Shown here: piece by piece, positions 830-30,906 of the stretch
How the letters are laid out: each line of letters starts with the position of its first letter
Numbering within the stretch: the first letter of the stretch is position 1
From: an uncultured Chlorobiaceae bacterium
Lineage (GTDB): Bacteria; Bacteroidota; Chlorobiia; Chlorobiales; Chlorobiaceae
DNA: 33,263 nt
Assembly (NCBI GenBank): GCA_903908555.1
Contig: CAIVSG010000202.1
Location: 1 to 33,263, forward strand
Direction: 5' to 3'
Position numbers and translations under genes: made by a program
Notes under the pieces: generated by a model
Database searches by the model: none
The model's input: only the letters and a program-made list of their open reading frames with translations
Told to the model about the DNA's origin: nothing

Positions 830-1993
830 TCACTGACCGGAGAGGATTTTCCGCTGGCGAACGACAATGCGTTCACTGATAAGGTTGCTGATAAAGCTGA
901 TAACCAGGAGAAGCAGGCCCATGGCAAAGAGCACATGGTAACGGGCTGAACCGGTGACCTGATCGGCTTCGCCCATGTCGCCGGCAATGGTGGCTGTCAG
1001 CGTCCTGATGGCTTCGAGGTAGTTGAACCAGGGCTCGGGAATATGGGAGGAGTTGCCGGAGGCCATCCAGACGACCATGGTTTCTCCGAGGGCCCGCATG
1101 ATACCGAGGATAACGGCAGCAAGAATGCCGCTGCTGGCGGCTGGCAGAATGGTTTTAATGATGGTTTCGGCTCTGGTGGCGCCGAGCGCGTAACTGCCTT
1201 CGCGGATGTCGCGGCCGACGGCCTGAAGGGCGTCTTCGGCGACGCTGACAATGGTCGGCAGGGCCATGAAGCTCAGAATAATGGAGACGTTGAGCGCGTT
1301 GGTGCCGGTAAGAATCTGTATGGCGAAAAGCATGGTACCGACTTTGTACAACATAACAAGAGAGATGAGGCCGAACACGGTAAGAAGGAGCACGTAGAGC
1401 TGCTGACGGCGCGCCGGCTCCTTGACTTTGGCAGAAAGGAGATCGGCCGCAACGAGAACAGCAAGCACGAGAAATGGTGTGACGAGTATCCACCAGGCCC
1501 ACATGAGCATGGGGCCGCCGTTGTTCTGGAGCATCGGAGCGAGAACGACAAGGGCAAAAAAGCCGAAGGCTACTGACGGTATTGCCGCGAGCATTTCTAT
1601 GACTGGTTTGGCATACTGCCGGACTGAAAATGGGAGAATATCGCTCAGACAAACGGCGGCGGCAATGCCCATCGGGACTGCAATAAGGGCGGAACCGAGG
1701 GTTACCATCAGGCTGCCGTAGATAATGGCAAGTGCTCCAAAGCCGCCGGGATGGTCGGCCGGGTACCAGTTTGAACTGGTGAAGAATTCAGTGAATCCTC
1801 GCTGCTGGAAAAAAGGAACGGCGTCGCGGGCTACGAAGTAGAAAATAAAGAGGACAACAACGGCGACAAACGAGGCGACTCCAAAAAGCAGGCCTTCGCC
1901 GACTTTTTTGGCGGAATTCTGCAGTGTGCGTTTGCGGGCGCTTATGACAAATGCGTTGGTACGGTTGGGTCCTCCGACACTCTCGTCAGCCAT
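830..1993 (-). CDS. pstC: Phosphate ABC transporter permease PstC
   Basis: This permease pairs with PstA in the Pst phosphate importer. The protein is 387 residues, longer than the roughly 300-320 usual for PstC. It has several hydrophobic segments and a C-terminal EAA-type loop (GSYALGATRAETI) that contacts the PstB ATPase. The extra length comes from a cytoplasmic N-terminal extension of about 30 residues and an additional segment near residues 190-250. A motif near the end (GDMGEA) is also typical. The gene is first in a minus-strand operon with pstA. Phased direct repeats resembling a PhoB site lie about 80-110 nt upstream. No PstS gene lies directly upstream; pstS is 8 kb away on the same strand. 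Confidence 0.93.
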   Translation of the reverse strand: MADESVGGPNRTNAFVISARKRTLQNSAKKVGEGLLFGVASFVAVVVLFIFYFVARDAVPFFQQRGFTEFFTSSNWYPADHPGGFGALAIIYGSLMVTLGSALIAVPMGIAAAVCLSDILPFSVRQYAKPVIEMLAAIPSVAFGFFALVVLAPMLQNNGGPMLMWAWWILVTPFLVLAVLVAADLLSAKVKEPARRQQLYVLLLTVFGLISLVMLYKVGTMLFAIQILTGTNALNVSIILSFMALPTIVSVAEDALQAVGRDIREGSYALGATRAETIIKTILPAASSGILAAVILGIMRALGETMVVWMASGNSSHIPEPWFNYLEAIRTLTATIAGDMGEADQVTGSARYHVLFAMGLLLLVISFISNLISERIVVRQRKILSGQ

Positions 1994-2986: not shown

Positions 2987-4105
2987 ATGCTTGGACTAGA
3001 CACCCTGAGTAAGTACTTCAGTAAAAGCACAATGTGTTTTCTTAAAAAAAAGCATGCTCACCTGGAGAGCCTGCTTAAAAAAGCAACGCCTGTTCAACTT
3101 GATCATTCGTCACGGATTCTGATTCTCAGTGACCTGCACATGGGCAATGGCGGCAGACTGGATGAGTTTCGGCAAAATGCTGAATTGGTCAAAACCATCC
3201 TTGAAAGCTATTATTTAGAGCAAAAGTACAGTCTTGTCCTTAATGGCGATATTGAGGAGTTGTTCAAGTTTCCTCTTAAAAGCATTGCTTCGAAATGGGG
3301 TGATTTTTATGAGCTTTTTTTGAAGTTTAAAGAGAATGGGTTCTTCTGGAAAACTTACGGCAACCATGATTCGGCCTTGCTTGATGAGAAGGAGTACCGG
3401 CTTCGGTCATCGCTGGCTGATTCGATTACCTTTCATTACGGGAATGATACCTTGCTGCTTTTTCATGGGCATCAGGCTTCGGTGCTTTTATGGGAAACCT
3501 ATTCAATGCTCAGTCGGGTGGTCATTTTGTTTCTCCGTTATATTGCAAAACCTTTAGGGTTAAAAAACTTTTCAGTTGCGTACAACAGCCGCAAAAGGTT
3601 TTCTATCGAGAAATCGATTTATGAGTTTTCAAACCAGGCCAAAATTGTGTCCATTATAGGGCATACTCATCGCCCGTTGTTTGAATCGCTGTCAAAAGTT
3701 GATTATCTGAATTATCGTATTGAGGATCTTTGCAGAACGTATTCATCTACTGACAGTGAAGACCGTCAAGAAATCGGGCTAAAAATAACTGCTTTAAAAA
3801 AAGAACTTGATGCCTGTTACAAAAAAGGGAAAATAATCGGTCTCCGGAGTGGCCTTTACAATCATCTTCCCATCCCCAGTGTTTTCAATTCAGGGTGCAC
3901 TATCGGAAAACGCGCAATAACAGCCCTTGAAATAGAAGGCAGCACCATCAGGCTTGTCTGCTGGTATAATGGTAAACGGAGACCAACGTTTATTGATGAC
4001 AGGGATCATCTGCCAATGGAGCTTGGGGAAACCGGATATTCAAGGATTGTGCTTAACGAAGATTCCCTGGATTATGTCTTTACCCGCCTTCACCTTCTAA
4101 CGTAA
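2987..4105 (+). CDS. Metallophosphoesterase (calcineurin-like)
   Basis: The protein has 372 residues with all metal-site motifs of the calcineurin-like superfamily: SDLH (D49, H51), NGD (86-88), GNHD (125-128), HGH (160-162) and GHTH (225-228). The layout is like UDP-2,3-diacylglucosamine hydrolases, but the protein is longer, with an insertion after the GHTH motif and a C-terminal extension. Substrate is not predictable from sequence. It sits 6 nt downstream of the PHP gene. Two unrelated phosphoesterases in one unit inside a Pho regulon region suggests scavenging or turnover of a phosphorylated compound, which is inference. A later in-frame Met at residue 16 is an alternative start. Confidence 0.85.
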   Translation: MLGLDTLSKYFSKSTMCFLKKKHAHLESLLKKATPVQLDHSSRILILSDLHMGNGGRLDEFRQNAELVKTILESYYLEQKYSLVLNGDIEELFKFPLKSIASKWGDFYELFLKFKENGFFWKTYGNHDSALLDEKEYRLRSSLADSITFHYGNDTLLLFHGHQASVLLWETYSMLSRVVILFLRYIAKPLGLKNFSVAYNSRKRFSIEKSIYEFSNQAKIVSIIGHTHRPLFESLSKVDYLNYRIEDLCRTYSSTDSEDRQEIGLKITALKKELDACYKKGKIIGLRSGLYNHLPIPSVFNSGCTIGKRAITALEIEGSTIRLVCWYNGKRRPTFIDDRDHLPMELGETGYSRIVLNEDSLDYVFTRLHLLT

Positions 4106-4239
4106 ACTGCTTGACCGGCTCAGACAGATTTTACTGAGTTGTAGCACGACCTTAACCATTCCCCAACACTATTTCACTTTCTTACGATTGAGAGGTTCAG
4201 GTTCTCGTCGGGATGCTACAGGGTAACTGAAGGAGACTT

Positions 4240-5070
4240 ATGATACAATTTGCGGAAAGCTTGTTCAAACCACTTCCCTTCCTACCCTCCAGTCGAGCTT
4301 TTTTGCTCAGGTTACTTATGCTTCCCAATTTTTTTTATACCAAAGCCTACGGTCTTGAGAATCTTGATGGTACGGGGAGTGCATGCATCTATGCTTTTAA
4401 CCATAATAATTCGATTGAAGTTCTAATGGTGCCGGCGCTGATCATCTACCATCTCGGTGGCCGTATGATCAGTTTTGTCATTGACTGGATGTATGGCAAG
4501 GTACCTGTTCTCGGTTCTCTGATGGACATGACCAGTCCTGTGTATGTCTATAATAAACGTTCTCGACTGCGCTGGATAGAGGCTAAACGGATGAGCCGCC
4601 CTGCCGATGCTACTGTGGAGAGATGCGCTGAAAAACTTCGTTCAGGTCAAAGTATCGGGATTTTTCCAGAGGGAACTCGTAACAGGAATGCTGATTACTT
4701 GCTTCAGGGAAAGCCGGGTATAGGTCATATAACATTGAAGACCGGTAGCAGTGTTGTGCCTGTGGGCATTGACTTTGAATGCCGGAGACGGAAAGGGCGC
4801 ATTCCTGTGCTTGGGCGAACCATTGTGAGAATCGGCAAGCCGCTTGATTTCCAGCATCAGTCTGAAAAATATCTGGCACTACTTGCCGATACATCTTACA
4901 AAAGCAATAAATCCTCAGAGATCAATCGAATGGCTGCTGATGTTACAAATGAAATTATGATCTCGCTGGCTGAGCTTTCCGGTAAGCGATACAGCGAACC
5001 CTGCAGTGTGATTAAAAAACCATTTACAACAACAACCATTAACCCAAAGGAGCACCTATGTCGAGTGTAA
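4240..5070 (+). CDS. PlsC-type 1-acyl-glycerol-phosphate acyltransferase family protein
   Basis: This 276-residue member of the lysophosphatidate acyltransferase family is predicted to transfer an acyl chain to a lyso-lipid at the inner membrane. A hydrophobic N-terminal stretch precedes block I, NHNNSIE at 54-60, and block III is FPEGTR at 142-147. The usual catalytic H-x4-D is H-x4-E here (H55, E60), an uncommon variant. A good Shine-Dalgarno (GAAGGAG) precedes the ATG. Its last 13 nt overlap the start of a GNAT acyltransferase gene, so the two are likely translationally coupled. The pairing recalls OlsA (PlsC-like) with OlsB (GNAT) in ornithine-lipid synthesis. A general PlsC role cannot be excluded. 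Confidence 0.82.
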   Translation: MIQFAESLFKPLPFLPSSRAFLLRLLMLPNFFYTKAYGLENLDGTGSACIYAFNHNNSIEVLMVPALIIYHLGGRMISFVIDWMYGKVPVLGSLMDMTSPVYVYNKRSRLRWIEAKRMSRPADATVERCAEKLRSGQSIGIFPEGTRNRNADYLLQGKPGIGHITLKTGSSVVPVGIDFECRRRKGRIPVLGRTIVRIGKPLDFQHQSEKYLALLADTSYKSNKSSEINRMAADVTNEIMISLAELSGKRYSEPCSVIKKPFTTTTINPKEHLCRV

Positions 5071-5759
5071 ACGTATGCAGGGTTGAGAGTGCCGGCGATC
5101 GTGCGGAGGCTCTTGAAGTGATCAAGAGGGTTTTTTGTGTTGAAAAAAACTGGATCAGCACCGTGCAGAACCAGATTCCCGATGAGCTTTCGGGAAATAC
5201 CAGGGTTTCATGGTTTCTGGCATCAATTAACGGCAAACCGGCAGGGGTGATGCGCCTGCTCTATGATCCATCTTTTGATATTCCTGCAGAGTATGATGTA
5301 AAGTTTATGCCGGGAATTGATGTTGAAGAGCTGAAAAGTGCCGGGAAATACGTTGAAATCGGCCGGTTCATGATTCTTGAAGAATACCGTAAGAACCCGA
5401 GGATAGCTCTCCGTTTGATGCGATCAGCCACTGCTGAGGTTATAGAGCGTGATTACACTCACTTTATTACCGATGTGTTTGAAGGCGAGAAGCATTCACC
5501 TCTCAACTTTCATACTCGGGTACTCGGGTTTGAAGTGATCGGAAAGCATCTTTTTGGCGAGCTTAACTGCAGCTCGACAAGAATTATTCTGACCCTTGAT
5601 ATTCTCAAGCTCTACAGCCGGATCAAGGACAGCCGGAGCAGGATGTATGCTGAATTGACTGATGGGTTCAGGGGAATTATAGAGCGCAAGGCAGCTATGG
5701 GACAGAGCGGAATTTCCAGAAGATTAGGGGAGCTTAGCGGGTTGCAGCCAAAAGTGTAA
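5058..5759 (+). CDS. GNAT-fold acyltransferase, FeeM/OlsB-like (probable N-acyltransferase)
   Basis: The 233-residue protein has a GNAT-like pattern: an N-terminal segment around residues 10-35 resembling autoinducer-synthase/FeeM proteins, a central VEIGRFMI strand followed by a helix rich in Arg/Leu, and a C-terminal part around FHTRVLGFEVIG. FeeM and OlsB relatives use acyl-ACP to N-acylate amino acids. A strong RBS (AAAGGAG) lies inside the end of the upstream PlsC-type gene, with a 13-nt overlap. The gene context is the best hint for a two-step acylation (N-acyl then O-acyl) giving an aminolipid. The substrate is unknown and the family assignment is by eye, so a different GNAT activity is possible. 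Confidence 0.65.
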   Translation: MSSVNVCRVESAGDRAEALEVIKRVFCVEKNWISTVQNQIPDELSGNTRVSWFLASINGKPAGVMRLLYDPSFDIPAEYDVKFMPGIDVEELKSAGKYVEIGRFMILEEYRKNPRIALRLMRSATAEVIERDYTHFITDVFEGEKHSPLNFHTRVLGFEVIGKHLFGELNCSSTRIILTLDILKLYSRIKDSRSRMYAELTDGFRGIIERKAAMGQSGISRRLGELSGLQPKV

Positions 5760-5792: not shown

Positions 5793-6053
5793 ATGCTTCG
5801 ACTGGATGAATTGAAGGCTGAAATTAAAGGTGAGTTTTTTTTGCAGGAAGAGCTGAAAGACCATGATGTGAAAAAGGTTGAAGCACAAGCTGATATTATC
5901 ATTAAGCCTGCCGGGAAAAAAGATCTGGTAAAAGCGCTTCGGATGCTTGAGAAATCCGGTTTTCCCCATCTTGTTATCAATTCCAAAGGGAGGGTGGTTT
6001 TCCCTGACAGGCGGTTTCACGGTGCTGTTATTGTGACAGATATGAAACTATAA
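5793..6053 (+). CDS. Small protein resembling the first half of a PCMH/FAD-linked oxidase N-domain
   Basis: The 86-residue protein has a strong RBS (GGGAGG) and starts 33 nt after the GNAT gene, so it probably belongs to that operon. Residues 30-85 follow the pattern of the FAD-binding N-domain of glycolate oxidase/MurB-like flavoproteins: a strand with Pro (IIIKPAG), a helix for a position-by-position search (LVKALRMLEKSG), a PHLVIN strand and a closing FHGAVIVTDM strand. The glycine-rich FAD loop (GxGTN) is absent, replaced by NSKGRVV. It may be a non-binding scaffold, a degenerate fragment under selection, or unrelated. I do not assign a function. Confidence 0.55.
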   Translation: MLRLDELKAEIKGEFFLQEELKDHDVKKVEAQADIIIKPAGKKDLVKALRMLEKSGFPHLVINSKGRVVFPDRRFHGAVIVTDMKL

Positions 6054-7040: not shown

Positions 7041-8834
7041 TCAGGTGCCTTTAAGAGCTATTTCTGCAGGAGCAACAGGAAAAATCACACAGAATACTGT
7101 GCCCTGGTTTACTCTCGAACGAACCTCCACATTCCCTTTGTGGGCAAGAACAATATGCTTGACTATTGAGAGGCCAAGACCTGTTCCACCGAGTTGACGG
7201 GATCGGGCCTTGTCTACCCGGTAAAATCGCTCAAATATTCTGCTGAGATCCTCTTTTGCTATACCAATACCGTTATCCTCCACCTCCACATGAACATTGT
7301 TGTCTCTGCGGAACGCTGAAATCCAGATTGCTCCATTGTGCTCATTAACATATTTAATGGAGTTGTCGAGGAGATTGCGAATAACAATTTCCAGATATAC
7401 TGCATCGGCATGGACTGGCGGAAGATCTTCGGGAATATGGAGATCCAGCTTGATGTGCTTTTTTTCAAGTGACAGTTTTAACAAGCCAATGGATTTCGCA
7501 ATTACACTGTTTATATCCACTGGCATGAGCTGATAGACAATCTGGCCGGACTCTATCCTTGACAGGTCGAGCACATCGTTTACCAAGGCAGTAAGCTGTG
7601 CTGTTGCGTCCAGAATAATTTTCAGAAATTCAGAGGAATGTTGCGGGTCATCCATTGCTCCGTCAAGAAGTGTTTCAGTGTAGCCACTGATGATGGAGAG
7701 AGGCGTGCGGAGCTCGTGTGAGACGCTGGAGACGAAATCCCTTCGTGTTCTCTCCAGATTACGGAGTTTGGTGATGTCGTTCAGGACAAAAACTGTTCCA
7801 TCGAATCGCCGTTCCTTCATCACAGGCATTGAACTGATTTGCATGATGCGCGATCCTTTTGAGCTCGTCACTGTCCTTTCTTCTTTGAGGAGTGTTATAT
7901 GGCTGTTGTGAACTTTTGCGAAAAGCTCTTGCAGCTTGTTGTCAGAAAGATGCCTTATTGGCCGGACCTTGAACATGTCGCCATCAATCCGGAACATTCT
8001 CGATGCTGCGGGATTGACCATGACTATATCACCGCTAGCGTTGGTAACGATTATAGACTCGCGAATACCTGAAAAAACAGCCCGATACCACTCCTCAATG
8101 CGCTGCAAATTGCTGATCTCTTCCCTCATCTCTTTGAATGCATTAGCGAGAGAGCCAATTTCATCACTGCGATGAAGAGGAATACTGTCTGGAAGGTCGC
8201 CGGAAATTCTGTTTTGAGTGATTTCAGCAAGGGTTATGAGCGGCCGGGTAAGAAAAAAAGAGGCCACAAGACCGATAATAAAGGAAAATAGAACTGTCAG
8301 AAAGAAGTCCTGCCCAATGTTATTGCTCATTCCGATATTGAAGCTTTCTATATCGTAGAGAGGTTTGGAAAACCGGAGAATGGCATAGGATTTCGGGACG
8401 CCGACAGGAACTGCCATATAGAGCATCTGCTCTTTTACGGTTTGACTGAGACGGATGTCTTCGCCATAACCTGTTGAAAAAGCAGATATAACTTCCGGTC
8501 TGTCGCGATGGTTTTCTACGATCAACAGCTTGTTTTGTGGAACAAAGGAGTCGCTGATAACGCGTCCATCAAGACCAATGAGCGTGACCCTGATATCAAG
8601 AGTGCTTCCAAGACGATTTACCCATGCATCTGTTGTGCCTGATGATATCTGTTCAATAGGATTGCGGTCAAGAAACTGCTTGTTGTAAAGAAGATCCTTA
8701 CGCAGTTCTTTCTTAATTTCAGAGGTCAGAATAGAGGTCAACTGACTACTAAGGAAGAGATAGCTGATTGCAGAGGCAGAAAAAACAAGTATACCGATAA
8801 CAGCGGCCAGTTTTATAAAAACCTTACTCTGCAT
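7041..8834 (-). CDS. phoR: Phosphate regulon sensor histidine kinase PhoR
   Basis: This inner-membrane histidine kinase is the partner of PhoB. From the ATG at 8834 the protein has 597 residues: TM1 (about 9-30), a periplasmic domain of roughly 145 residues, TM2 (about 178-198), HAMP, PAS (about 255-355), HisKA with the phospho-acceptor in SHELRTP, and an ATPase domain with the N box NLLDNS, G1 DNGIGI and G2 GGTGLGL. The start is chosen because an AGAGGG RBS lies 8 nt upstream and the first residues (MQSKVFIK) lead into TM1. It overlaps phoB by 11 nt. Unlike E. coli PhoR, it has a real periplasmic sensor domain, as in PhoR of Bacillus. Confidence 0.9.
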   Translation of the reverse strand: MQSKVFIKLAAVIGILVFSASAISYLFLSSQLTSILTSEIKKELRKDLLYNKQFLDRNPIEQISSGTTDAWVNRLGSTLDIRVTLIGLDGRVISDSFVPQNKLLIVENHRDRPEVISAFSTGYGEDIRLSQTVKEQMLYMAVPVGVPKSYAILRFSKPLYDIESFNIGMSNNIGQDFFLTVLFSFIIGLVASFFLTRPLITLAEITQNRISGDLPDSIPLHRSDEIGSLANAFKEMREEISNLQRIEEWYRAVFSGIRESIIVTNASGDIVMVNPAASRMFRIDGDMFKVRPIRHLSDNKLQELFAKVHNSHITLLKEERTVTSSKGSRIMQISSMPVMKERRFDGTVFVLNDITKLRNLERTRRDFVSSVSHELRTPLSIISGYTETLLDGAMDDPQHSSEFLKIILDATAQLTALVNDVLDLSRIESGQIVYQLMPVDINSVIAKSIGLLKLSLEKKHIKLDLHIPEDLPPVHADAVYLEIVIRNLLDNSIKYVNEHNGAIWISAFRRDNNVHVEVEDNGIGIAKEDLSRIFERFYRVDKARSRQLGGTGLGLSIVKHIVLAHKGNVEVRSRVNQGTVFCVIFPVAPAEIALKGT

Positions 8835-9534
8835 TGGTTGATCCCTCTTTTTCCTCAAGTTTGTAGCCAAATCCACGAACCGTTTTGATCATACTCCCTG
8901 TGTCACCAAGTTTTTCACGTATTCTGGTTATATGGGTATCAATAGTTCTCGTATTGAGCGTTTTATCGACATTCCATACATCGCTGAGCAACATTTCCCG
9001 TGATTGGGCCTCTCCCTTCCTTTTAATTAATGCAAAAAGAAGTTTGAACTCCATGAGAGTCAGTAAAAGCTCGCGGCCATTGAGTGTAACAATGTGACGA
9101 GTTACATCGATCTTCAGACCGGCAACCTTGAGTACATCCTGAATTTTTCCTGAGTTGCGACGCTCTCTATTGAGAATGGCCCTTATCCTGAGGGTCAGCT
9201 CACGTGGGCTGAATGGCTTGACCACATAGTCATCGACTCCGAGTTCAAAGCCGAGAATCCTGTCTATTTCCTCACCCTTTGCGGTGAGCATGATGATCGG
9301 GAGATCTTTGTGCAGTTGATTTTGTCTGATAGTCCGACATACTTCAAAGCCGCTCATTCCCGGCAGCATGATATCAAGCAATACCAGATCAAAATTTTTC
9401 GATGTAAGTTGTGCAAGTCCATCTTCACCGGAACCTGATAGATGACATGTAAAGCCTGCACGGACGAGATTGTATTCGAGGAGTTTGGAGAGATTCTGGT
9501 CGTCCTCTATAACAAGAAGCATTGGAGCCGGCAT
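8824..9534 (-). CDS. phoB: Phosphate regulon response regulator PhoB (OmpR/PhoB family)
   Basis: This 236-residue response regulator controls phosphate-starvation genes. The receiver domain has the acidic pair at D11-D12, phosphorylation site D54 (LVLLDIMLPGMSG) and K86 (MLTAKGEE). A winged-helix DNA-binding domain ends with the typical TVRGFGYKL segment. The kinase gene overlaps its 3' end, the standard phoBR layout. Start is either the ATG at 9534 or the one four codons later; neither has a strong RBS. The assignment to PhoB rather than another OmpR-type regulator rests on the adjacent PAS-containing kinase and on pstS and pst porin genes next door. Confidence 0.9.
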   Translation of the reverse strand: MPAPMLLVIEDDQNLSKLLEYNLVRAGFTCHLSGSGEDGLAQLTSKNFDLVLLDIMLPGMSGFEVCRTIRQNQLHKDLPIIMLTAKGEEIDRILGFELGVDDYVVKPFSPRELTLRIRAILNRERRNSGKIQDVLKVAGLKIDVTRHIVTLNGRELLLTLMEFKLLFALIKRKGEAQSREMLLSDVWNVDKTLNTRTIDTHITRIREKLGDTGSMIKTVRGFGYKLEEKEGSTNAE

Positions 9535-9855: not shown

Positions 9856-10674
9856 TTAATGATAATTGACAAATCCGGTTTCACTGATGATGCGTTTGCC
9901 TGCTTCGGATTTTGCCAAATCAATGAACTGCTTGACAACACCTGTTGGCTGACCATTGGTGTACATGAAGAGCGGACGATGAATCGGGTAGGTGCCATTT
10001 TTTACTGTTTTAACATCAGCCTCTACTCCGTCAACCAGGATTGCTTTCACAGAGCTGTCAACAAAACCAAGACCAATATAACTGATAGCTCCAGGTGTGC
10101 TTGCAACTCGGCTCTTGATAGCGCCATTGCTAGACTGGGTTTCTGCTTTTTTTGAAATTGGATTATCCTTGCCCATAACCAGTTCTTTGAACGAGTCGGC
10201 TGTGCCGCTGTTGGATTCGCGCTGGATGACAACTATACCGGCATTTGGTCCGCCAATCTGGCTCCAGTTGGTATATTTACCCATGTAAATTCCGCGGATC
10301 TGAGCTTTTGAAAGCGCATTGACCCGGTTGCTTGGGTGCAGAACTATAGACAGACCGTCAAGTGCTACAACGTGCTCTACAGGGTTTACGCCTTTGCCTT
10401 TTGCTGCAGCCAGTTCATTGTCTTTCATTGGACGCGACATGGTTGCGATGTCGCAGGTTTTATTGATAAGGCTTTTTGCACCGTTACCTGAACCGGACTC
10501 GCTTACTGTCACCTGGACACCTGTGGTTTTAGTAAAATGATCGGCAAACGCTTTTGCGATAGGACCAACTGTGGTCGAACCGTCAATAACAATTTTACCT
10601 GCCGCCTGGGCTGTACCCGACGCCATAACGCCGAAGACGGTCGCACTTAAAAGTATTTTCTTGAATAGTTTCAT
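9856..10674 (-). CDS. pstS: Phosphate ABC transporter substrate-binding protein PstS
   Basis: The periplasmic phosphate-binding protein of the Pst importer has 272 residues. A signal peptide starts MKLFKK and ends at about AQA. The mature protein has the PstS phosphate-site motifs DGSTTVGP near the N-terminus, SESGSGNG and the central RESNSGT segment. The ATG at 10674 is preferred over an in-frame TTG four codons upstream because it begins the signal peptide. The gene lies 148 nt downstream of a porin gene on the same strand and ends in a strong terminator. Separation from pstCA by 8 kb is unusual. A decayed copy of its 3' end is at 12.2 kb. Confidence 0.95.
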   Translation of the reverse strand: MKLFKKILLSATVFGVMASGTAQAAGKIVIDGSTTVGPIAKAFADHFTKTTGVQVTVSESGSGNGAKSLINKTCDIATMSRPMKDNELAAAKGKGVNPVEHVVALDGLSIVLHPSNRVNALSKAQIRGIYMGKYTNWSQIGGPNAGIVVIQRESNSGTADSFKELVMGKDNPISKKAETQSSNGAIKSRVASTPGAISYIGLGFVDSSVKAILVDGVEADVKTVKNGTYPIHRPLFMYTNGQPTGVVKQFIDLAKSEAGKRIISETGFVNYH

Positions 10675-10822
10675 GGTAATTGTCAAAATTGAGTTAATAA
10701 AATGTAAAGTGAAAAAAATTGTTGTTCATAAACCGGATATACAAGGCTGCCCATCAGCATTAGAAACAGCCCTGCTACCCAGACCCGACACTACACAACA
10801 ACGAAAGAACAACACACAAAGT

Positions 10823-11980
10823 TTAGAACTTTACGGAAGCGTCTACCCACAAGATTTGAGTGGTAGGAATTGGAGCACTGATTGTCTGGAACCTGAAATA
10901 TGACAAGCCAAGCGTCAAGTTCTGCACAAGGTGGTAAGCCGCGGCCAGCTTGATACCTTTAAGATCTACCTGTGTTCCACGGTTACGGTCTGAATCTGTG
11001 AAGCCGGTAACTGCATCTCTCTCGATATAGGCGTATTCAGCGGAAGTGAACCACTGTCCAACCTGCTTGGCATCACCGATTTTTGCCTCAACAAGGTAAC
11101 TGGTCCTTTTTGAGTCGTCGATCGCGGTATAGCGAACGCCATCATTCGTGGCAGTGTTGAAGGCATACTGCGCATTGATCTGCCATGGAAGCGTATCTGT
11201 AAGCTGGCCGCCAACCTTTCCGAAAAGCTCAACAATATTGAAGTCTTTTCCGCTATAGTTGTTAGCTCCTTTTAAGACCATGCCGTTATAATCAAAATTC
11301 ACATAGTCATAATAGGCGGCACCTACCTGATAGTTGATATCGCTGAATTCACCCTTATAACTGGCCTGAGCAGCGAAGAGGTACGCATCATTATATTTAT
11401 TTGTACTACCAACAATCGTGGTATTATTAAGCTCGTTAAGCGGGTAGTATCCTATAACGGCACTTAGCCCGTCTTTTTCTTTGCCTGCTGCATCCTTGCC
11501 GTACTGAAGGGTTGCTCCCTCAAAGGTAAGGTCGCTGTCCCACACGAGATCGTTTACAACAATAAGAGTGCTTGCAACGGCTCTCTTTCCAAGGATTACG
11601 TTCACGTCGCCACAGAGCATAGCTGGATGGTAGTCGATGAAGTACTCATTCAAGAAGACCGGACTGGCATGGAACGTATTGCCAAAGGTCTGGTTGCGTG
11701 AGGTCGTTTCATTAGTTGCCCAATATTGGGTTGATGACACGTCATCCGTTGCGATCTGGACTCCGGCTGACAGTTCTTCGTTGATCCAGGCGTTTGCGCC
11801 GAGACGCAGACGGCCACGGTGGCGATTACGGCTGATGTCCGTTGTCGCAGAATTGCCATCATCAGTTTTTTCAGTTTGGTAGCGATAGCGAACATCGCCT
11901 GCCCAGTTCAGGTCAACAGCTTGCGCGTTGTTGTACCCGAGGGAAGCGGCCAGACCGACCAATAATGCTAATTTCTTCAT
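10823..11980 (-). CDS. Outer-membrane porin, probably phosphate-starvation induced
   Basis: This 385-residue beta-barrel outer-membrane protein has a signal peptide ending AQA at about 20-22. Alternating polar/aromatic strands run through the sequence, and the C-terminus ends in Phe (WVDASVKF), the usual signal for barrel assembly. The N-terminal GDVRYRYQTE and RLRLGANAWI strands match the family of 'putative porins' rather than OprP. Being directly upstream of pstS, and having a candidate Pho box, suggest it lets phosphate or phosphate esters across the outer membrane under starvation, an analogue of OprP/PhoE. Specificity is inference. Confidence 0.8.
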   Translation of the reverse strand: MKKLALLVGLAASLGYNNAQAVDLNWAGDVRYRYQTEKTDDGNSATTDISRNRHRGRLRLGANAWINEELSAGVQIATDDVSSTQYWATNETTSRNQTFGNTFHASPVFLNEYFIDYHPAMLCGDVNVILGKRAVASTLIVVNDLVWDSDLTFEGATLQYGKDAAGKEKDGLSAVIGYYPLNELNNTTIVGSTNKYNDAYLFAAQASYKGEFSDINYQVGAAYYDYVNFDYNGMVLKGANNYSGKDFNIVELFGKVGGQLTDTLPWQINAQYAFNTATNDGVRYTAIDDSKRTSYLVEAKIGDAKQVGQWFTSAEYAYIERDAVTGFTDSDRNRGTQVDLKGIKLAAAYHLVQNLTLGLSYFRFQTISAPIPTTQILWVDASVKF

Positions 11981-12061: not shown

Positions 12062-12105
12062 AATGTAACCATCACTTTGTTAAGGGTTTGTTACGGGAGT
12101 GTAAC
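12062..12105 (-). promoter_or_regulatory. Candidate Pho box and -10 region upstream of the porin
   Basis: Three 7-nt units repeat at an exact 11-bp period on the plus strand: 12077 (TTGTTAA), 12088 (TTGTTAC) and 12099 (GTGTAAC), with 4-nt spacers GGGT and GGGA. Read on the gene strand they are GTTACAC, GTAACAA and TTAACAA. A -10-like TACATT lies 9 nt further towards the gene (12067-12062). The start codon is about 80 nt downstream. Same spacing and similar units occur upstream of pstC, supporting a shared PhoB site. Confidence 0.6.
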
Positions 12106-12205
12106 ATGATTGTGAACAATAAATAGATCACAAATTCCCGTTGTACTTGTGTTTTTAAATAGGGGCAGACGATGAGAAATGAGAAAGGATTTGACTGTTG
12201 TGAGC

Positions 12206-16706: not shown

Positions 16707-17516
16707 TCAGTCATGCGGCTCCAGCGGAAGATGCTGATGGACATGCTCCCTGCCGTCATGGTGGTGTCGATGTATGTGTATAAGGTTATTCGACTCAAGG
16801 AGTGAACGATCATTCAAAATAGATTCTGAAGAGCCTCCCCTGACAATACTTTTGTTCCGACCGAACACATAAACCGTATCGGCTATTTCACCGATAATGT
16901 GCAAGTCATGCGTGGCGGTAATAATGGTCTTTCCCCGCTGATTGGCATTGACAATAAAATCAATAATGTGCCGGACAGTCAAGGGATCGAGCCCTGCTGT
17001 TGGTTCATCGAATAAATAGACATCAGGATCAATTGCAAGAACAGAGGCGATTGCGACCCGCCGTTTCTCTCCGATGCTTAATTGATGGGGAACCCTCTCC
17101 AATAAATGCTGAATATCCAACACATCGGCGACCTCCAGGATACGCCGGTTCACTTCACCCTCAGCCACCCCAAACTGCAAAGGACCAAAGGCAATATCCT
17201 CTCGCACTGATGGGCAGAACAACTGAATATCTGCATTCTGGAAAACAAGGCCAACCCTTTGCCGAAAGCGGTGTGCAGCCTTTTCATACACCTCCGAATG
17301 TTCAAGCAGCCTCTCTCCAAAGGCTGTCACAGTACCACGATCAGGAAAAATCAGTCCGTCCAGGAGTTGCAACAGGGTAGATTTTCCTGTTCCATTAGCA
17401 CCTATGACCGCAATCTTCTCCCCCGACCGGATGGTCATATCCACACCGCAGAGCGCAGGGAATTTGCCCAGATATGAGTAGTGCACATCCTTGACTTCAA
17501 AAATTATATCACTCAT
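16707..17516 (-). CDS. cbiO: Cobalt/nickel ECF transporter ATPase CbiO
   Basis: This energy-coupling ATPase of a group I ECF transporter has 269 residues. Walker A GANGTGKST is at about 38-46. The ABC signature is LSIGEKRR, and Walker B is VYLFDEPTAGLD followed by an H-loop (ATHD). The last 30 residues contain nine His (HIHRHHHDG, EHVHQH), a probable metal-binding tail. It overlaps cbiQ by 4 nt (ATGA), as do the other genes of the operon. The gene order CbiM-CbiN-CbiQ-CbiO and the MHIPDG start of CbiM mark the substrate as Co2+ or Ni2+. Confidence 0.92.
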   Translation of the reverse strand: MSDIIFEVKDVHYSYLGKFPALCGVDMTIRSGEKIAVIGANGTGKSTLLQLLDGLIFPDRGTVTAFGERLLEHSEVYEKAAHRFRQRVGLVFQNADIQLFCPSVREDIAFGPLQFGVAEGEVNRRILEVADVLDIQHLLERVPHQLSIGEKRRVAIASVLAIDPDVYLFDEPTAGLDPLTVRHIIDFIVNANQRGKTIITATHDLHIIGEIADTVYVFGRNKSIVRGGSSESILNDRSLLESNNLIHIHRHHHDGREHVHQHLPLEPHD

Positions 17517-18364
17517 AGGCTATATCCTTTATACAATAGGAATGCACAGATGACAACAGCACTCAACAGCCAGAGCCAATCTTTCGGTGTTGCATTAAAT
17601 TTGGAGAGGAGTCGGGGCTCGCCGGTATAGCCTCTCGAAAGCATTGCCATATATACCTCTTCACTCATTTGTGTTGTTCTGTTCCATGTATTGGCAATAT
17701 TCCAGGCTACAACGTTCTGCCCATGCCGCTGATGCGACACCACCCCGACACGACTTTTAACTGCGGTAAAAATATTTTCGACCATCGTGGCAAAGAGATA
17801 GAGATAGCGGTAACACATCGATACCGTCAACACAAAAAGCTGCGGGACACCAAACAGCCTTAAAACCTTCAATAACTCCGAGTGCCGGGTCGTTACCGAT
17901 AGTAAAACAACCAGCGACACCGAGGTTGCAACCCTGAGCACAAAGAGTACAGCTCCATCCAGACCCGGACGGGTAATGATCGCATTGATTCCTGAAATAT
18001 GGAAAGACCATAGAGGCTCACCTGGTGTCACAACACTGAACAAGGTTGGAAGCACAATGAAGAGCGAAAACAACGGAATGAAAAAGAGAGTCCTTAAGAG
18101 GAAGTTCCTGAGCGGAATTCTGGACAACAAGGCAAGTATCAAGCACAATACGTAGAGAGGAGAAATCAAAATAGCGCTTTTTAAAGAGACCGCAGTAACA
18201 AGAAACGCTAAAAAGGAGATGGTTTTAAAGCGGGGATCCAATGACTGCAAAAAACCTTTGCGATTGGCATACTCTTCCGACAGAGTTGCATCTTTTAAAA
18301 AAGCAAGAGCGCTCAGGATTGAACGCTCTATAAAATCATGCTTCTTGTGTAAAGGGTTACTCAT
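17513..18364 (-). CDS. cbiQ: Cobalt/nickel ECF transporter transmembrane subunit CbiQ
   Basis: This 283-residue membrane T-component links the ATPase to CbiM. It has at least five hydrophobic segments between about 45 and 275. The coupling region holds the family motif (SRGYTGEPR) in a cytoplasmic helix near residue 240. A conserved LDPRFK segment follows the N-terminus. It overlaps CbiN's gene by 8 nt and CbiO's by 4 nt, indicating a tight operon. The protein is slightly longer than the usual 225-260 residues because of an N-terminal extension of about 35 residues. Confidence 0.9.
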   Translation of the reverse strand: MSNPLHKKHDFIERSILSALAFLKDATLSEEYANRKGFLQSLDPRFKTISFLAFLVTAVSLKSAILISPLYVLCLILALLSRIPLRNFLLRTLFFIPLFSLFIVLPTLFSVVTPGEPLWSFHISGINAIITRPGLDGAVLFVLRVATSVSLVVLLSVTTRHSELLKVLRLFGVPQLFVLTVSMCYRYLYLFATMVENIFTAVKSRVGVVSHQRHGQNVVAWNIANTWNRTTQMSEEVYMAMLSRGYTGEPRLLSKFNATPKDWLWLLSAVVICAFLLYKGYSL

Positions 18365-18692
18365 GCTCTTTTGCTAATACCTTGCCTATTAAAAACGCAA
18401 CTCCTGCTATGATCGAGATGCCGGAAACTGCAGAGATGATATACGCAAAACTCCGTTGAAAGAGATCTTTTCCTTCCCATCTATGAAAAGCATAATCCGC
18501 AAAAGGCGCTTTCCATAAATCGGAAACTCTTTGAAAACCCTTTGGAACATATCCGTTCATTTTCTGTATCTCATCCAGCCCCCACTCCCCCCATGCCGAT
18601 CCAGCATTAAAATGATCCGGTACAATTAGCCCAAGAGGTGAGAGTAGAATTAACACACCAATCCCTATCCATAGTTTTCCGGTCAGCGTCAT
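18357..18692 (-). CDS. cbiN: CbiN-like small subunit of cobalt/nickel transporter
   Basis: This 111-residue membrane protein has two predicted helices (about 7-26 and 85-104) and a periplasmic loop with SAWGEWG and GYVPKG. The pattern matches the small accessory component that stands between CbiM and CbiQ in Geobacter-like operons (CbiN/PDGLE-type). It is needed for substrate loading into CbiM in related systems. It overlaps cbiM by 4 nt and cbiQ by 8 nt. Exact assignment as CbiN versus the related NikN is uncertain; position and size support a functional equivalent. Confidence 0.75.
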   Translation of the reverse strand: MTLTGKLWIGIGVLILLSPLGLIVPDHFNAGSAWGEWGLDEIQKMNGYVPKGFQRVSDLWKAPFADYAFHRWEGKDLFQRSFAYIISAVSGISIIAGVAFLIGKVLAKEHE

Positions 18693-19369
18693 GATCTGCC
18701 TCCTTCAAAAAAAACAGCACCCTGCTTCTGTAAGTATTTTACAGCCAATGCTGTCACAATCACCTCCACCCATCCGATGAACACAAGATGGCCTAAAAGC
18801 ATTGCGGGAACGGCAACATTGAGACCATAAGGGCAGTACAACGCCTGACCATTTGCCGTATGATAGAGTAAGGGTTGCAATCCAAATTCGATGCCGGCAA
18901 AGAGAGCCGCTGCACAAATGCCCGCGTAGGCTCCTGCACCGGCTGCAATTATACGCCTGCGGGAGCCAGACGGGCTGCCGGAGCTGATGAATTTATAAAC
19001 ATAATAGCCGACAAAAGGAAGCACAAACGCCATGTTGAAACAATTCGCTCCGATGGCTGTAATGCCTCCATCGCCAAACAACAGCGCCTGAATCACCAAG
19101 GCAACGGTAACAGCAATGCAGGCCGCCCATGGCCCTAAAAGAATGGCAACAAGGACACCGCCAACTGCATGTCCACTCGACCCGCCCGGGATGGGCACGT
19201 TGAACATCATAATCACAAAGCTGAAAGCGGCACCAATCGCCAGATAAGGAACCTGCCTGGCACTCAATGTATTATTAACCGCCCTGGAAGCAGCCGCCCA
19301 TATCGGGATCATTACGGCACCAAATACCATGCAAGTCGCAGGGCTTAAATATCCATCAGGTATGTGCAT
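18689..19369 (-). CDS. cbiM: Cobalt/nickel ECF transporter substrate-binding membrane protein CbiM
   Basis: This 226-residue integral membrane S-component begins MHIPDGYL; the N-terminal Met-His pair together with a further His (GHAVGG segment) forms the metal site in CbiM/NikM. About six to seven membrane helices are visible. Conserved PIPGGSSGH and NMAF segments are present. It starts a minus-strand operon cbiM-N-Q-O and is divergent from an exported TPR gene. No cobalamin riboswitch or NikR site was recognised in the 185-nt intergenic region. Substrate is Co2+ or Ni2+; cobalt for B12 is plausible because bacteriochlorophyll producers need cobalamin. Confidence 0.92.
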   Translation of the reverse strand: MHIPDGYLSPATCMVFGAVMIPIWAAASRAVNNTLSARQVPYLAIGAAFSFVIMMFNVPIPGGSSGHAVGGVLVAILLGPWAACIAVTVALVIQALLFGDGGITAIGANCFNMAFVLPFVGYYVYKFISSGSPSGSRRRIIAAGAGAYAGICAAALFAGIEFGLQPLLYHTANGQALYCPYGLNVAVPAMLLGHLVFIGWVEVIVTALAVKYLQKQGAVFFEGGRS

Positions 19370-26833: not shown

Positions 26834-28012
26834 TCAAATCACCGGTTCACCCTCTTCGGCAACCGGCACTCGCGACAAATCAAGTTCGCCTTTGAACGCC
26901 TGTTGACTGATGATACCATAGAGGGATTCGAGTTGGATGAGAGATTGGGCGTATGAAGTCTTCAGGGATGCAACTTTGGTGACTATGGCCGCAAAGCGGT
27001 TTTGCAGTTCAAGAGGGGGTACTGGAATAATGGTTTCTTTAAGTTTTTCGCCGGTCAAATGGGCAATGGTAGCTTTACATGTAACATTCTTAAACCCATT
27101 GTATGACGAAAAGAACATCATCACATATTGTACGTATTCAGGTATCGCTTGCGACTTGTGCAATCTAACTCGATGTATGGCCTTCTGGAAATAACATTCT
27201 GCTAAGTTATTTTTCCATATTGCACTACGCCCTATATCACCACCTTCACAAATAAGAAGGTCACCATCCATCAAACCAAATAATGCTCGTGCTCTTTCAT
27301 CAAAATCCATTTCCTCCAAATTATCCAATTGAAAACGAAACCACTGGACATTAGAATTCCCGATATACTTTCTGAGATGATTTCCTGTAATGAACTTTTT
27401 GTCACGCATTTTACCCAATCGAGAATCAGAAATTTCATCCATACGTTTCTTCTCCCACCTCTTCTCATTCCTGACCGGATCGCCAAACATCTCCAGAAAA
27501 ACACTTTTGAGCAGTTCGTCAAGCTGTTTGAGTTGCTCGCGACGGCGGGAGATCAGGTTCTCTACTTTGGAAAGAAGTGTTGCGATACGGATTTGGTCGC
27601 CATACTCAAAAACAGGTATCAGAATACTTTCTAATGCATTTCGACTTATATGCGGAATCGTTGCGCCGGTAGAGGTTTTCCTCAAATAGTTAAAATTTGA
27701 CTGTAAAAAAATCCCGATGAATGGGGTGTAAAATTTTGATTTATCATGTAAACGAAGACGAGAAATTGTGCTACCAATATATCCCTGCTTTCCATACCCT
27801 ATAGTGCCGGCATTAGCGCCATCCCATGCGATCAGAACATCATTTTCACAAGCAAGCACACCGCCTTGATCATCTGTCATTCTGATTAAGGTGTCGTTTC
27901 GTAAATCATCAATACCAAGCACTCTTTTTGATTGAGAAGATGGCATATCAGTAATAGTATGCTTCTTCCCTTTTGATATCGTGATGAGAGAACCGAGTTT
28001 AATCGTTTTCAT
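26834..28012 (-). CDS. hsdS: Type I restriction-modification specificity subunit HsdS
   Basis: The 392-residue specificity subunit determines the bipartite target sequence of the type I R-M complex. It has two target-recognition domains (about 1-180 and 190-380), each closed by a helical spacer; the first ends in LKSVFLEMFGDP and the second in a Leu-rich helix region. The ATG at 28012 (MKTIKLGSL) is chosen over an in-frame TTG upstream because a GGGGAGGGG RBS precedes it. Its first 14 nt overlap the DUF1016 gene. TRD1 and TRD2 specificity cannot be predicted from sequence by eye. Confidence 0.9.
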   Translation of the reverse strand: MKTIKLGSLITISKGKKHTITDMPSSQSKRVLGIDDLRNDTLIRMTDDQGGVLACENDVLIAWDGANAGTIGYGKQGYIGSTISRLRLHDKSKFYTPFIGIFLQSNFNYLRKTSTGATIPHISRNALESILIPVFEYGDQIRIATLLSKVENLISRRREQLKQLDELLKSVFLEMFGDPVRNEKRWEKKRMDEISDSRLGKMRDKKFITGNHLRKYIGNSNVQWFRFQLDNLEEMDFDERARALFGLMDGDLLICEGGDIGRSAIWKNNLAECYFQKAIHRVRLHKSQAIPEYVQYVMMFFSSYNGFKNVTCKATIAHLTGEKLKETIIPVPPLELQNRFAAIVTKVASLKTSYAQSLIQLESLYGIISQQAFKGELDLSRVPVAEEGEPVI

Positions 28013-29030
28013 ATCCCCTCCCCTCAATCGCCTTCATCTCCCTGACCAAGTGCTCCCTGAGCACCTCTTCACTTGGCAAATAGAGCTTGTACTGACTCGC
28101 CAGTATGGTCTGGTTATCCTCCGGCAGGGAAATTTTTACGACCGCATCATTTTTGTCGGCAGCAAGCAGAATACCTATCGTCGGATTCTCTTCGGGCAGT
28201 TTTTCGTATCGGTCATAATAGTTGACATACATCTGTAACTGTCCCAAATCCTGGTGGGTCAGCTTATGCGTCTTGAGTTCGATAATGACAAAACAACGTA
28301 AGAGGCGATTGTAAAAAACAAGATCAATAAAGAAGTCGTCGCCTTTGAGGTGGATTCTCTGTTGGCGGGCCACAAAAGTGAAACCGTTGCCCAACTCCAG
28401 CAAAAACTCCTGCAACTGGGTGATGATTGCCTGTTCCAGATCTTTTTCGTAGTAGGCGCTCTCACGTTTCAAGCCTAAAAACTCCAGAAACATGGGGTCT
28501 TTAATGATGTCGGTCGCTTTTTCGGGTTGCTGCTCGCCACGGGCAACCGAGAGCACCCGTTCTTTGTCGTTGCTTAACAGAAGTCGCTCGTAAAGCTGGC
28601 TGTTTATCTGCCGTTCAAGTTGCCGGGCAGTCCAGTTGTTTTTGGTGGCTTCAGCGATATAATATTCTCTTTTACTTTCATCATCAATACGAATGAGATA
28701 GCGGTATTGCGTCCAATTCAATTGCGAACGCAGTGCGTTCGCAATTGGAAAGACACGATAAAATTGGCGACTAAGCTCTAATTGGCGAACAGAAAAATTT
28801 GTGCCATAATCAGGTTCCAATACCTGAGAAAGTGTTTTGATCAGATAAGCTCCGTACTCCGCCCGCTCTTTTCCCTGTTGCTCCTCTTCGAGAATGCTCT
28901 TGCCAATATTCCAGTACATGAGAACCCTGTGATGATCAACTGCACGAACAGCATTTTCCCGAGCCAGTGTAATGATCTCTTTGATCTGCCCGATAAACTG
29001 AGGGCGAATAGTAATTTCAGTCTCTTTCAT
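27999..29030 (-). CDS. DUF1016/YhcG-type PD-(D/E)XK nuclease
   Basis: This 343-residue protein has an N-terminal helical domain with the WNIGK motif and a C-terminal PD-(D/E)XK domain with DFFIDLVFYN and IIELK (metal-binding Asp and Glu-x-Lys). DUF1016 proteins are predicted nucleases often found near type I R-M loci. It is inserted between hsdM and hsdS, overlapping hsdM by 4 nt and hsdS by 14 nt, so it is cotranscribed with the R-M genes. A 14-bp palindrome lies inside its coding sequence. Its role may be in defence or in modifying the R-M complex. Confidence 0.85.
   Translation of the reverse strand: MKETEITIRPQFIGQIKEIITLARENAVRAVDHHRVLMYWNIGKSILEEEQQGKERAEYGAYLIKTLSQVLEPDYGTNFSVRQLELSRQFYRVFPIANALRSQLNWTQYRYLIRIDDESKREYYIAEATKNNWTARQLERQINSQLYERLLLSNDKERVLSVARGEQQPEKATDIIKDPMFLEFLGLKRESAYYEKDLEQAIITQLQEFLLELGNGFTFVARQQRIHLKGDDFFIDLVFYNRLLRCFVIIELKTHKLTHQDLGQLQMYVNYYDRYEKLPEENPTIGILLAADKNDAVVKISLPEDNQTILASQYKLYLPSEEVLREHLVREMKAIEGRGYEND
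28718..28746. repeat. 14-bp perfect palindrome within the DUF1016 gene
   Basis: Arms 28718-28731 (CAATTGCGAACGCA) and 28733-28746 are perfectly complementary with a 1-nt centre. It encodes PIANALRSQLNW in frame without disrupting the gene. It is either coincidental coding symmetry or a hairpin element absorbed into the gene. Confidence 0.7.
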
Positions 29031-30688
29031 CCGATCATCCCCTTGAGCTCAAGCAGCTCCCTTACAATACCACTCTGAATATTTGCAAGTTCAGCATCAT
29101 CAATCTCCCCCACCTCTGCTGCAATGAGTTTATCCAGAATAACCGAAGGACTTTCGTAGACAACCTCTTCAAAAACATCCGTTTTATAACGGGAAATCGA
29201 AAGATCATACCCACCCTCTCCTTCAATTTCTGAACGGGAAACCATAAAACACTTTTCAGTTCTATCGTAGTCGTGCTGTGCGTTTCGCTTTTTAAATTTT
29301 TCGACAATATCAAGCAGATCGCCAAACCCATCCTGCTTGCTTCGTTTATCATCCAGCGAATAGCCGTCAGACTTCATGTCGTAGAACCAGACAAACTCTG
29401 TCGCTGGTTTGCTAACCTTGTCCAGCGGGCCCCAAACTTTAGTAAACAGCAGAATTGAGGTTGAAACCCCAGCATAGGGTTTGAATACGCCACTCGGCAT
29501 GGTGATTACCGCTTTCAGGTCGCACCGCTCCACAAGCAGTTTGCGTAAATCTTTGAATGCACCGCCGGAGCCAAAGAGGACGCCTTGCGGTACAATAACG
29601 CAGGCTGTTCCCCCTTTTTTCAGCAGCCGATAGATGTTTTCGACAAACAACAGCTCAGTCTTGGTGGTGGAGAGGGTAAAGCTTTCGTTGATATCGCCTT
29701 TGTCAATGCTGCCGGTGAAGGGAGGATTGGCCATGACTATGTCGTAGCAGGACTCTTCGGTAAAGCTTTTGCTCAAGGTGTCTTTATAATCAATTTCAGG
29801 CTCGTCAATCCCGTGCATCATGAGATTCATCAGACCAAGACGAACCATGGTGCTGTCGATATCGTAGCCGAAGAGCGTTTTGCTGAGTATGCTTTTTGCA
29901 TGTTCGGTAAGGCCGGCAGAAACGGAGGTGCGGATAAACCCGTCTTCGTCGGGAAGAAGATTTTGGTTGCCGGCACGAATTGCCAACTGCGTGACAATAT
30001 ATTGATAGGCACCAAGCAGAAATCCCCCTGATCCACATGCGGGATCGGCAATAGTGTGGCCAAGCTGAGGCTCGACCAGATCGGCCATCATCTTGATAAT
30101 GTGGCGCGGTGTACGGAACTGGCCGTTTTTACCCGCCGAGGCGATTTCGGAGAGAAGAAATTCATAGACATCACCCTGAATATCCTGAAATGCCTGCCCT
30201 TTTTCATTCGAGTCCGTTTCCATCACTTCAAAGATCTCATCAACCGTCTTAACGGCTTCAACCAGAAGTGACGGCTTGGGAATGATGAAGACCGCATTTT
30301 TCATGTGGTGGGAAAATTTCGACTCAGCACCGTTCAGGTCTTTGAGATAGGGGAAGACTCTGGATTGCACATGAGTAAGCATAACATCCGCCTGCATGTG
30401 TTTGAATTCACTCCAGCGAAGTGTGCTTTTGTCGATCGCATAACTCTCGGGATTTTCTTTGTCACGGTATTCGGGTGGTATCCACATTCCCTTAAATTTG
30501 GAGCTGTAGGTGTCGCCCGCCCACTCGGCACTTGCCTGCTTCTCTTTATCCTGATCGTCCATCCGCTTCATGAAAAGCAGATAGGTGATCTGTTCGATGG
30601 CGGTGAGTGGATTGGAGATTCCACCGCTCCAGAACTTGTTCCAGAGTTGGTCTATTTTTGATTTCAGTTCCGGATTGTTTTGAAGCAT
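29027..30688 (-). CDS. hsdM: Type I restriction-modification methyltransferase HsdM
   Basis: This 553-residue N6-adenine DNA methyltransferase subunit has an N-terminal helical region (LWNKFWSGGI, ITYLLFMKRMDD), the AdoMet motif I DPACGSGGF and the catalytic motif IV NPPF (MANPPFTGSI). It methylates the target chosen by HsdS and, together with HsdR, forms the restriction complex. The start at 30688 follows the hsdR stop by 218 nt, which contains a remnant of another gene. Overlap with DUF1016 is 4 nt. Confidence 0.95.
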   Translation of the reverse strand: MLQNNPELKSKIDQLWNKFWSGGISNPLTAIEQITYLLFMKRMDDQDKEKQASAEWAGDTYSSKFKGMWIPPEYRDKENPESYAIDKSTLRWSEFKHMQADVMLTHVQSRVFPYLKDLNGAESKFSHHMKNAVFIIPKPSLLVEAVKTVDEIFEVMETDSNEKGQAFQDIQGDVYEFLLSEIASAGKNGQFRTPRHIIKMMADLVEPQLGHTIADPACGSGGFLLGAYQYIVTQLAIRAGNQNLLPDEDGFIRTSVSAGLTEHAKSILSKTLFGYDIDSTMVRLGLMNLMMHGIDEPEIDYKDTLSKSFTEESCYDIVMANPPFTGSIDKGDINESFTLSTTKTELLFVENIYRLLKKGGTACVIVPQGVLFGSGGAFKDLRKLLVERCDLKAVITMPSGVFKPYAGVSTSILLFTKVWGPLDKVSKPATEFVWFYDMKSDGYSLDDKRSKQDGFGDLLDIVEKFKKRNAQHDYDRTEKCFMVSRSEIEGEGGYDLSISRYKTDVFEEVVYESPSVILDKLIAAEVGEIDDAELANIQSGIVRELLELKGMIG

Positions 30689-30761
30689 CGGCTATTGACC
30701 TTTATTTAAATTCTTCACAGTGACCGACCCTTTTGCAAGTACGCCGGTACACCATTGCTGA

Positions 30762-30821
30762 CTCTACCCCTCACTCTACCCCCGACTGGGCCCCTGAGTT
30801 GGCCCCTGAGTGGGCCCCTGA
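30762..30821 (-). repeat. Five tandem 12-bp units
   Basis: Five 12-bp units lie head-to-tail at 30762, 30774, 30786, 30798 and 30810. On the minus strand the best three read TCAGGGGCCCAC, TCAGGGGCCAAC and TCAGGGGCCCAG; the other two are TCGGGGGTAGAG and TGAGGGGTAGAG. They encode SGAH, SGAN, SGAQ, SGVE and then a stop in place of Ser, a Ser-Gly-Ala linker. Confidence 0.85.
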
Positions 30822-30905: not shown

Positions 30906-30906
30906 G

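Follow-up and report, generated by a model that had tools for sequence, protein, structure and literature searches.

A conserved PlsC-type and FeeM-like acyltransferase gene pair linked to phosphate genes in green sulfur bacteria, and its candidate role in aminolipid synthesis

The current analysis describes a conserved gene pair encoding a PlsC-type acyltransferase with an H-x4-E motif and a FeeM-like GNAT acyltransferase, which in the Chlorobiaceae is linked to pst genes and preceded by an element of direct repeats. We judge it reasonably probable that the pair performs a Pho-regulated acylation, amide first and ester second, in which the FeeM-like protein would be the first enzyme and the H-x4-E protein the second, and that the product is a phosphorus-free aminolipid. 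More tentative, and in our view somewhat short of an even chance, is the broader proposal that the cassette represents a second lineage of aminolipid synthesis, independent of OlsB, GlsB and OlsF, in which a FeeM-type N-acyl amino acid synthase and an H-x4-E PlsC-type enzyme, spread over many phyla and wired to Pho control in green sulfur bacteria, make a new phosphorus-free membrane lipid. The pair lies on a 33,263-nt contig of an 81%-complete, 2.8-Mb genome of an uncultured Chlorobiaceae bacterium, a green sulfur bacterium by its nearest relatives, which are genomes of Chlorobium and Chlorobiaceae; this whole stretch is referred to below as the window. Its relevant features are as follows.

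830 to 1993, minus strand: PstC-type permease (PF00528, BPD transporter, 2.6e-10), whose orthologue in other Chlorobiaceae is flanked by pstS and pstA
2987 to 4105, plus strand: calcineurin-like metallophosphoesterase, 372 aa (PF00149, 8e-7), upstream of the Pho-box-like element
4130 to 4173, plus strand: Pho-box-like element made up of four direct repeats of 11 bp, TTTACTGAGTT GTAGCACGACC TTAACCATTCC CCAACACTATT, 66 bp upstream of the start codon of PlsC
4240 to 5070, plus strand: PlsC/LPLAT-family acyltransferase, 276 aa, predicted O-acyltransferase (PF01553, 7.6e-19)
5058 to 5759, plus strand: FeeM-like GNAT acyltransferase, 233 aa, predicted N-acyltransferase with the motif E-I-G-R-F (E100, R103, F104; PF21926, 25.7 bits)
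5793 to 6053, plus strand: small ORF, 86 aa, with similarity to MurB confined to the N-terminal part of the latter (NCBIfam MurB, partial match, 1.8e-6)
7041 to 9534, minus strand: PhoR-type histidine kinase (HisKA, HATPase, HAMP, PAS) and PhoB-type response regulator (8824 to 9534; Response_reg, Trans_reg_C)
9856 to 10686, minus strand: PstS phosphate-binding protein, from its sequence and the conserved order with pstC, pstA, pstB and phoU
10823 to 11980, minus strand: putative phosphate-responsive porin, from the conserved order porin-pstS-pstC-pstA
12073 to 12116, minus strand: second Pho-box-like element, before porin-pstS (matrix score 19.7, the window's second-best site; best of 20 shuffles, 12.5)

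Layout and distribution of the gene pair

The two genes overlap by 13 nt (5058 to 5070), exactly as the first-pass annotation had given them, and both ORFs have good ribosome-binding sites (AAGGAGACTT-ATG and AAAGGAGCACCT-ATG). Among 80 paired loci, a set that includes six Chlorobiaceae loci fetched twice, the genes share a strand and mostly overlap or are separated by a gap of at most about 40 nt. The commonest overlap is again 13 nt, and since it recurs in about half of these loci, it is more than a chance feature of the window. The pairwise distances of the two proteins are also correlated, with r=0.93 overall and 0.79 for 21 distant loci, values reached by 0 of 1000 permutations, although common ancestry of the genomes would by itself produce part of such co-divergence.

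Scanning genome contigs yielded 106 GNAT relatives, and 79 loci were kept. By MAG titles, which may be wrong for single bins, these loci belong to Chlorobiaceae (Chlorobium and Chlorobaculum), Desulfobacca and other Deltaproteobacteria, and Caldithrix/KSB1, as well as to Bacillota, Spirochaetales, Acidobacteria, Verrucomicrobia, Melioribacter and Chromatiaceae. Almost without exception, the gene directly before the GNAT gene is an H-x4-E PlsC-family one; Melioribacter-labelled genomes carry the GNAT without an H-x4-E PlsC, and one Acidobacteriota genome has both genes, separated from each other. Two loci depart from the usual arrangement in other ways: in a distant member of the phylum, a single H-x4-E PlsC gene is followed by two tandem, diverged GNAT copies (L032, 2689 to 4042), and the GNAT reading frame is split in a KSB1-labelled MAG (L110, 1178 to 1857).

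Within the class, 59 of 98 genomes encode the GNAT, all of them in one family and two genera, and none was detected in genomes of the sister families. The cassette is evidently an accessory trait, as near-complete genomes without the GNAT exist. The GNAT is absent from one complete genome, of 2,154,946 bp, and present in two others, of 2,289,249 and 2,364,842 bp; by their lengths, the first would be C. tepidum TLS and the other two C. parvum NCIB 8327 and C. luteolum DSM 273. Further carriers of the cassette are C. ferrooxidans DSM 13031 and Chlorobaculum thiosulfatiphilum DSM 249 (L083), the latter presumably the same strain as Chlorobium limicola f. thiosulfatophilum 6230.

Families, motifs and predicted folds of the two acyltransferases

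The PlsC-type protein belongs to the PlsC/LPLAT superfamily by both domain and fold. It scores 68.3 bits against PF01553 (cut-off 23), and its structural model (pLDDT 88.6) best matches PlsC (5KYM), followed by GPATs, PatA and LpxM. Its motifs are H55-NNSI-E60 and FPEG at 142 to 145, and the replacement of H-x4-D by H-x4-E that had been read from the sequence at first pass proved to be invariant, occurring in 21 of 21 diverse homologues aligned; the canonical PlsC (AGPAT) motif H-x4-D is thus not a feature of this group. The invariant residues of the diverse alignment are N54, H55, E60, F79, D82, W83 and E144. H-x4-E is retained across loci labelled Chlorobi, Desulfobacca, Caldithrix, Bacillota, Spirochaetales, Acidobacteria, Verrucomicrobia and Chromatiaceae. 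The window's genome encodes two further PF01553 proteins, both with H-x4-D, which makes the H-x4-E protein an additional one. LpxM, which acylates the 3-hydroxyl of acyl chains, offers a precedent for the altered motif, as its entry 5KNK notes a catalytic Glu (E127A mutant). By this analogy, the Glu of H-x4-E would be compatible with catalysis.

The GNAT protein passes the Acetyltransf_1 profile (23.1 bits, cut-off 20.7), falls 1.3 bits under the cut-off of 27 for the FeeM profile PF21926, and reaches 15.3 bits against the OlsB/GlsB-type profile PF13444 (cut-off 22.4). The earlier statement that it resembles FeeM is therefore right, whereas a match to OlsB-type enzymes, the other half of the profile check proposed with it, is lacking at the profile level. 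At least six members of the GNAT family, from Chlorobaculum and other genomes, pass the PF21926 cut-off, and a few distant members barely pass that of PF13444. Alignment to the OlsB/GlsB-type set by hhalign gave a probability of 10.6%, with the E-[IL]-G-R motifs aligned nonetheless; given the failed profile and this marginal value, membership of the OlsB/GlsB family was rejected. The GNAT profile detected none of the OlsB/GlsB/OlsF-type reference proteins, and PF13444 has no match over its cut-off in the window's genome. One cassette-bearing Chlorobium genome encodes a PF13444-type (OlsB/GlsB-like) GNAT (L125, 1411 to 2205).

The structural model of the GNAT (pLDDT 87) adopts a predicted FeeM-like fold. 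Its top Foldseek matches in the PDB are the chains of FeeM 2G0B (TMt about 0.7), with PaiA, BjaI and many generic GNATs close behind and an identity of about 14% in the structural alignment with FeeM; when the GNAT profile was run against PDB sequences, only chance matches came back. Its invariant residues are R15, E29, K30, W32, W52, R66, G102-R103-F104, D139 and H152; E100 of the E-I-G-R-F motif is kept in at least 90% of 26 rows, with Glu95 of FeeM as its candidate counterpart. The autoinducer synthase profile PF00765 (LuxI/EsaI) does not match the window's GNAT, and among 13 members matches one, weakly (E 0.027).

Phosphate genes and Pho-box-like elements

The presence of Pho genes nearby, also remarked upon at first pass, is real, and the tie to phosphate proves stronger than could be seen then: in the window, the cassette lies between the minus-strand pstC on one side and phoR-phoB, pstS and the porin gene, likewise on the minus strand, on the other. 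More generally, the Chlorobiaceae cassette heads or abuts porin-pstS-pstCAB-phoU genes, and many members of the family share the order PlsC-GNAT-(small ORF)-porin-pstS-pstS-pstC-pstA-pstB-phoU on one strand; it is this conserved order that identifies 830 to 1993 as a Pst permease. The 86-aa ORF is well conserved after the GNAT in many Chlorobium species and was not seen beside the cassette in Chlorobaculum loci. The metallophosphoesterase, for which PDB sequences gave nothing useful, is a possible partner in phospholipid remodelling. In a Bacillota-labelled MAG (L094, 3558 to 7762), pstS, a PAP2 phosphatase, PlsC, the GNAT and a metallophosphoesterase follow each other on one strand; some 20 nt separate the metallophosphoesterase gene from the GNAT gene, and its product is orthologous to that of the window (E 3e-94). 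This gene order independently supports tying the cassette to phosphate uptake and to lipid turnover. Elsewhere in the window, Rfam has no match, 16707 to 19369 appears by eye to hold CbiM/Q/O-type metal (cobalt or nickel) ABC uptake genes, and 26834 to 33153 type I restriction-modification genes (specificity, methylase, helicase-like) together with a DUF1016-like protein.

Direct repeats of 11 bp are a hallmark of Pho boxes, and as a sequence element the four repeats upstream of PlsC have this form, which makes control of the cassette by PhoB likely. The element is kept in about 50 Chlorobiaceae loci, with the consensus TTTACAGAATC GTTGCANNNCC GTAACNNTTCC CCAACACTNNT. A 44-bp matrix trained solely on PlsC-upstream sites scores 60.5 at 4130 to 4173, compared with 12.5 for the best of 20 shuffled windows, and of the other sites it found in Chlorobiaceae loci, 35 immediately precede the porin gene and one precedes pstS. 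An IUPAC pattern, at no more than one mismatch, has three sites in the 2.8-Mb genome, a count that is biased, as the pattern was drawn from the two window sites and includes them by construction; a reversed control pattern had no match in the same genome. The independent evidence is therefore the set of porin-pstS sites recovered by the PlsC-only matrix. The third genomic site (L164, 5089 to 5127, contig C158) lies upstream of genes for a TonB-dependent receptor, exbB, exbD and a tonB-like protein, possibly a Pho-regulated uptake system. Outside the Chlorobiaceae, about 22 tests of distant loci for Pho-box-like repeats gave a mixed set of nominal p values.

Proposed function, alternatives and known systems

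Based upon these features, phosphate limitation would lead PhoR/PhoB, presumably through binding of PhoB to the repeats, to switch on the cassette. The FeeM-like GNAT may then, like FeeM, draw on acyl-ACP to acylate a small amine at its amino group; the amine is most likely an amino acid and the chain probably 3-hydroxyacyl. By analogy to LpxM and OlsA, the H-x4-E PlsC-type enzyme would attach another acyl chain, probably to the 3-hydroxyl that the first one carries, and the resulting two-chain, phosphorus-free aminolipid would replace phospholipid and spare phosphate. Of this scheme, we infer the head group, the acyl donor and the order of the steps. The first-pass suggestion of an undescribed N-acyl/O-acyl lipid system accordingly stands as a candidate, carried by the coupled genes, the pairing across phyla, the pst linkage and the Pho-box-like element; an amino-acid substrate and a membrane aminolipid are what we infer beyond these. 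Several considerations weigh against the aminolipid reading, among them the Melioribacter-labelled genomes that have the GNAT and no H-x4-E PlsC, and the mixed outcome for Pho-box-like repeats outside the Chlorobiaceae. As judged from sequence profiles, the GNAT lies under the FeeM cut-off and fails PF13444, the family common to all aminolipid N-acyltransferases known to a 2024 review (PMC11631085). The same review knows of no further acylation of the N-acyl amino acids made by FeeM-type enzymes and notes that a 3-hydroxyl is often absent from them. The cassette would be an exception to what the review says of the shared PF13444 family and of further acylation.

Several other products can be envisaged. 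The pair could build an acylated glycolipid or biosurfactant such as that reported for GlcA/GlcB/GlcC of Rouxiella badensis, where a published glucoselipid operon (PMC12299268) places GNAT and PlsC genes side by side. As this GNAT/PlsC/HAD operon makes a glucoselipid, the gene pair by itself is no proof of an amino-acid head group, and HAD-family and methyltransferase genes do lie upstream of the cassette, on the opposite strand, in many Chlorobiaceae. We nevertheless regard a glycolipid as improbable, since the HAD gene is divergent in the Chlorobiaceae and does not adjoin the cassette in the window, and the closest structures of GlcA are PA3944-type GNATs (PMC12299268) and not FeeM. The occurrence of FeeM and of the AHL synthases BjaI and EsaI among the structural matches of the GNAT could instead point to a soluble N-acyl amino acid or an AHL-like signal that PlsC modifies for signalling and not for membranes. 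Against this, which we consider quite improbable, stand the weak match of the autoinducer synthase family in a single member, the lack of any noted LuxR-type receptor gene beside the cassette, and a linkage that is to phosphate uptake and a PlsC-type enzyme.

It is similarly improbable, to our minds, that the PlsC-like protein is just a second phosphatidic-acid synthase and the GNAT an acetylase of some small molecule, the pairing reflecting phosphate-uptake physiology only. PF01553 and Acetyltransf_1 are indeed generic families; however, the invariant H-x4-E, the co-divergence and the cross-phylum pairing speak against this view, as do the genome's two other PlsC-family genes. Least probable of all, and very unlikely in our estimation, is that the pair builds part of the aminoglycosphingolipid of strain 6230, with the GNAT as an unrelated ceramide-type N-acyltransferase. 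The cassette's occurrence in DSM 249 agrees with this, as does the report of that lipid (Jensen et al. 1991, as cited in PMC11762602), but a ceramide needs no O-acyltransferase.

Should the aminolipid reading be true, it would identify the genes behind membranes that spare phosphate, both in the green sulfur bacteria of stratified lakes and in several uncultured phyla, settle whether N-acyl amino acids of the FeeM type can end up as membrane lipids, and offer a clear comparison within one family between strains with the cassette and a complete genome without it. Furthermore, since the known aminolipid N-acyltransferases are all of the PF13444 type (PMC11631085), surveys based upon that family would miss the cassette and undercount producers of phosphorus-free lipids. 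In the open literature, to which our search was confined, neither the PlsC/GNAT pair, nor ornithine lipids of Chlorobium, nor H-x4-E in such a context was found described. N- and O-acylation in two steps is already known. What appears to be undescribed there is the pairing of these enzymes, together with the H-x4-E signature and the taxonomic spread.

Among the known systems, GlcABC resembles the cassette in its adjoining GNAT and PlsC genes and a multi-acyl lipid product, and differs in having a HAD phosphatase as third gene, in its closest structures and in that no pst linkage is described in the available part of PMC12299268. The LpxM secondary acyltransferases share with the PlsC-type protein the LPLAT fold and a catalytic Glu in place of Asp, but act upon lipid A and match its fold less well than PlsC does. 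OlsF likewise combines N- and O-acylation and, in Desulfovibrio alaskensis, is a lipid enzyme of phosphate limitation (PMC5193443). However, it is one fused protein whose O-acyltransferase domain, PF19576, is of another kind (PMC11631085), whereas the cassette consists of two separate ORFs and is not a fusion of this type. The glycine-lipid synthases GlsB/GlsA of Bacteroides also perform N- and then O-acylation with a GNAT and an O-acyltransferase gene, but GlsB is of the PF13444 type (PMC11631085), the family without a match in the window's genome.

FeeM and related N-acyl amino acid synthases (NAS) are closest to the GNAT by structure (2G0B), by the several members passing PF21926 and by the conserved motif Glu. 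The GNAT is set apart from them by the low identity in structural alignment, a nearly constant coupling to PlsC and a score slightly below the Pfam cut-off, and FeeM-type products are not known as membrane lipids (PMC11631085). With OlsB/OlsA of the Sinorhizobium type, the cassette shares a GNAT-fold N-acyltransferase and a PF01553 O-acyltransferase encoded by adjacent genes (adjacent in 80 loci), the E-[IL]-G-R motif seen in PF13444-type references, and an association with phosphate limitation. The analogy to OlsA/OlsB drawn at first pass thus holds for fold types and gene pairing and fails for the N-acyltransferase family; the cassette also differs in its H-x4-E and in having the PlsC gene first. 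It is placed in neither the OlsBA nor the FeeM group.
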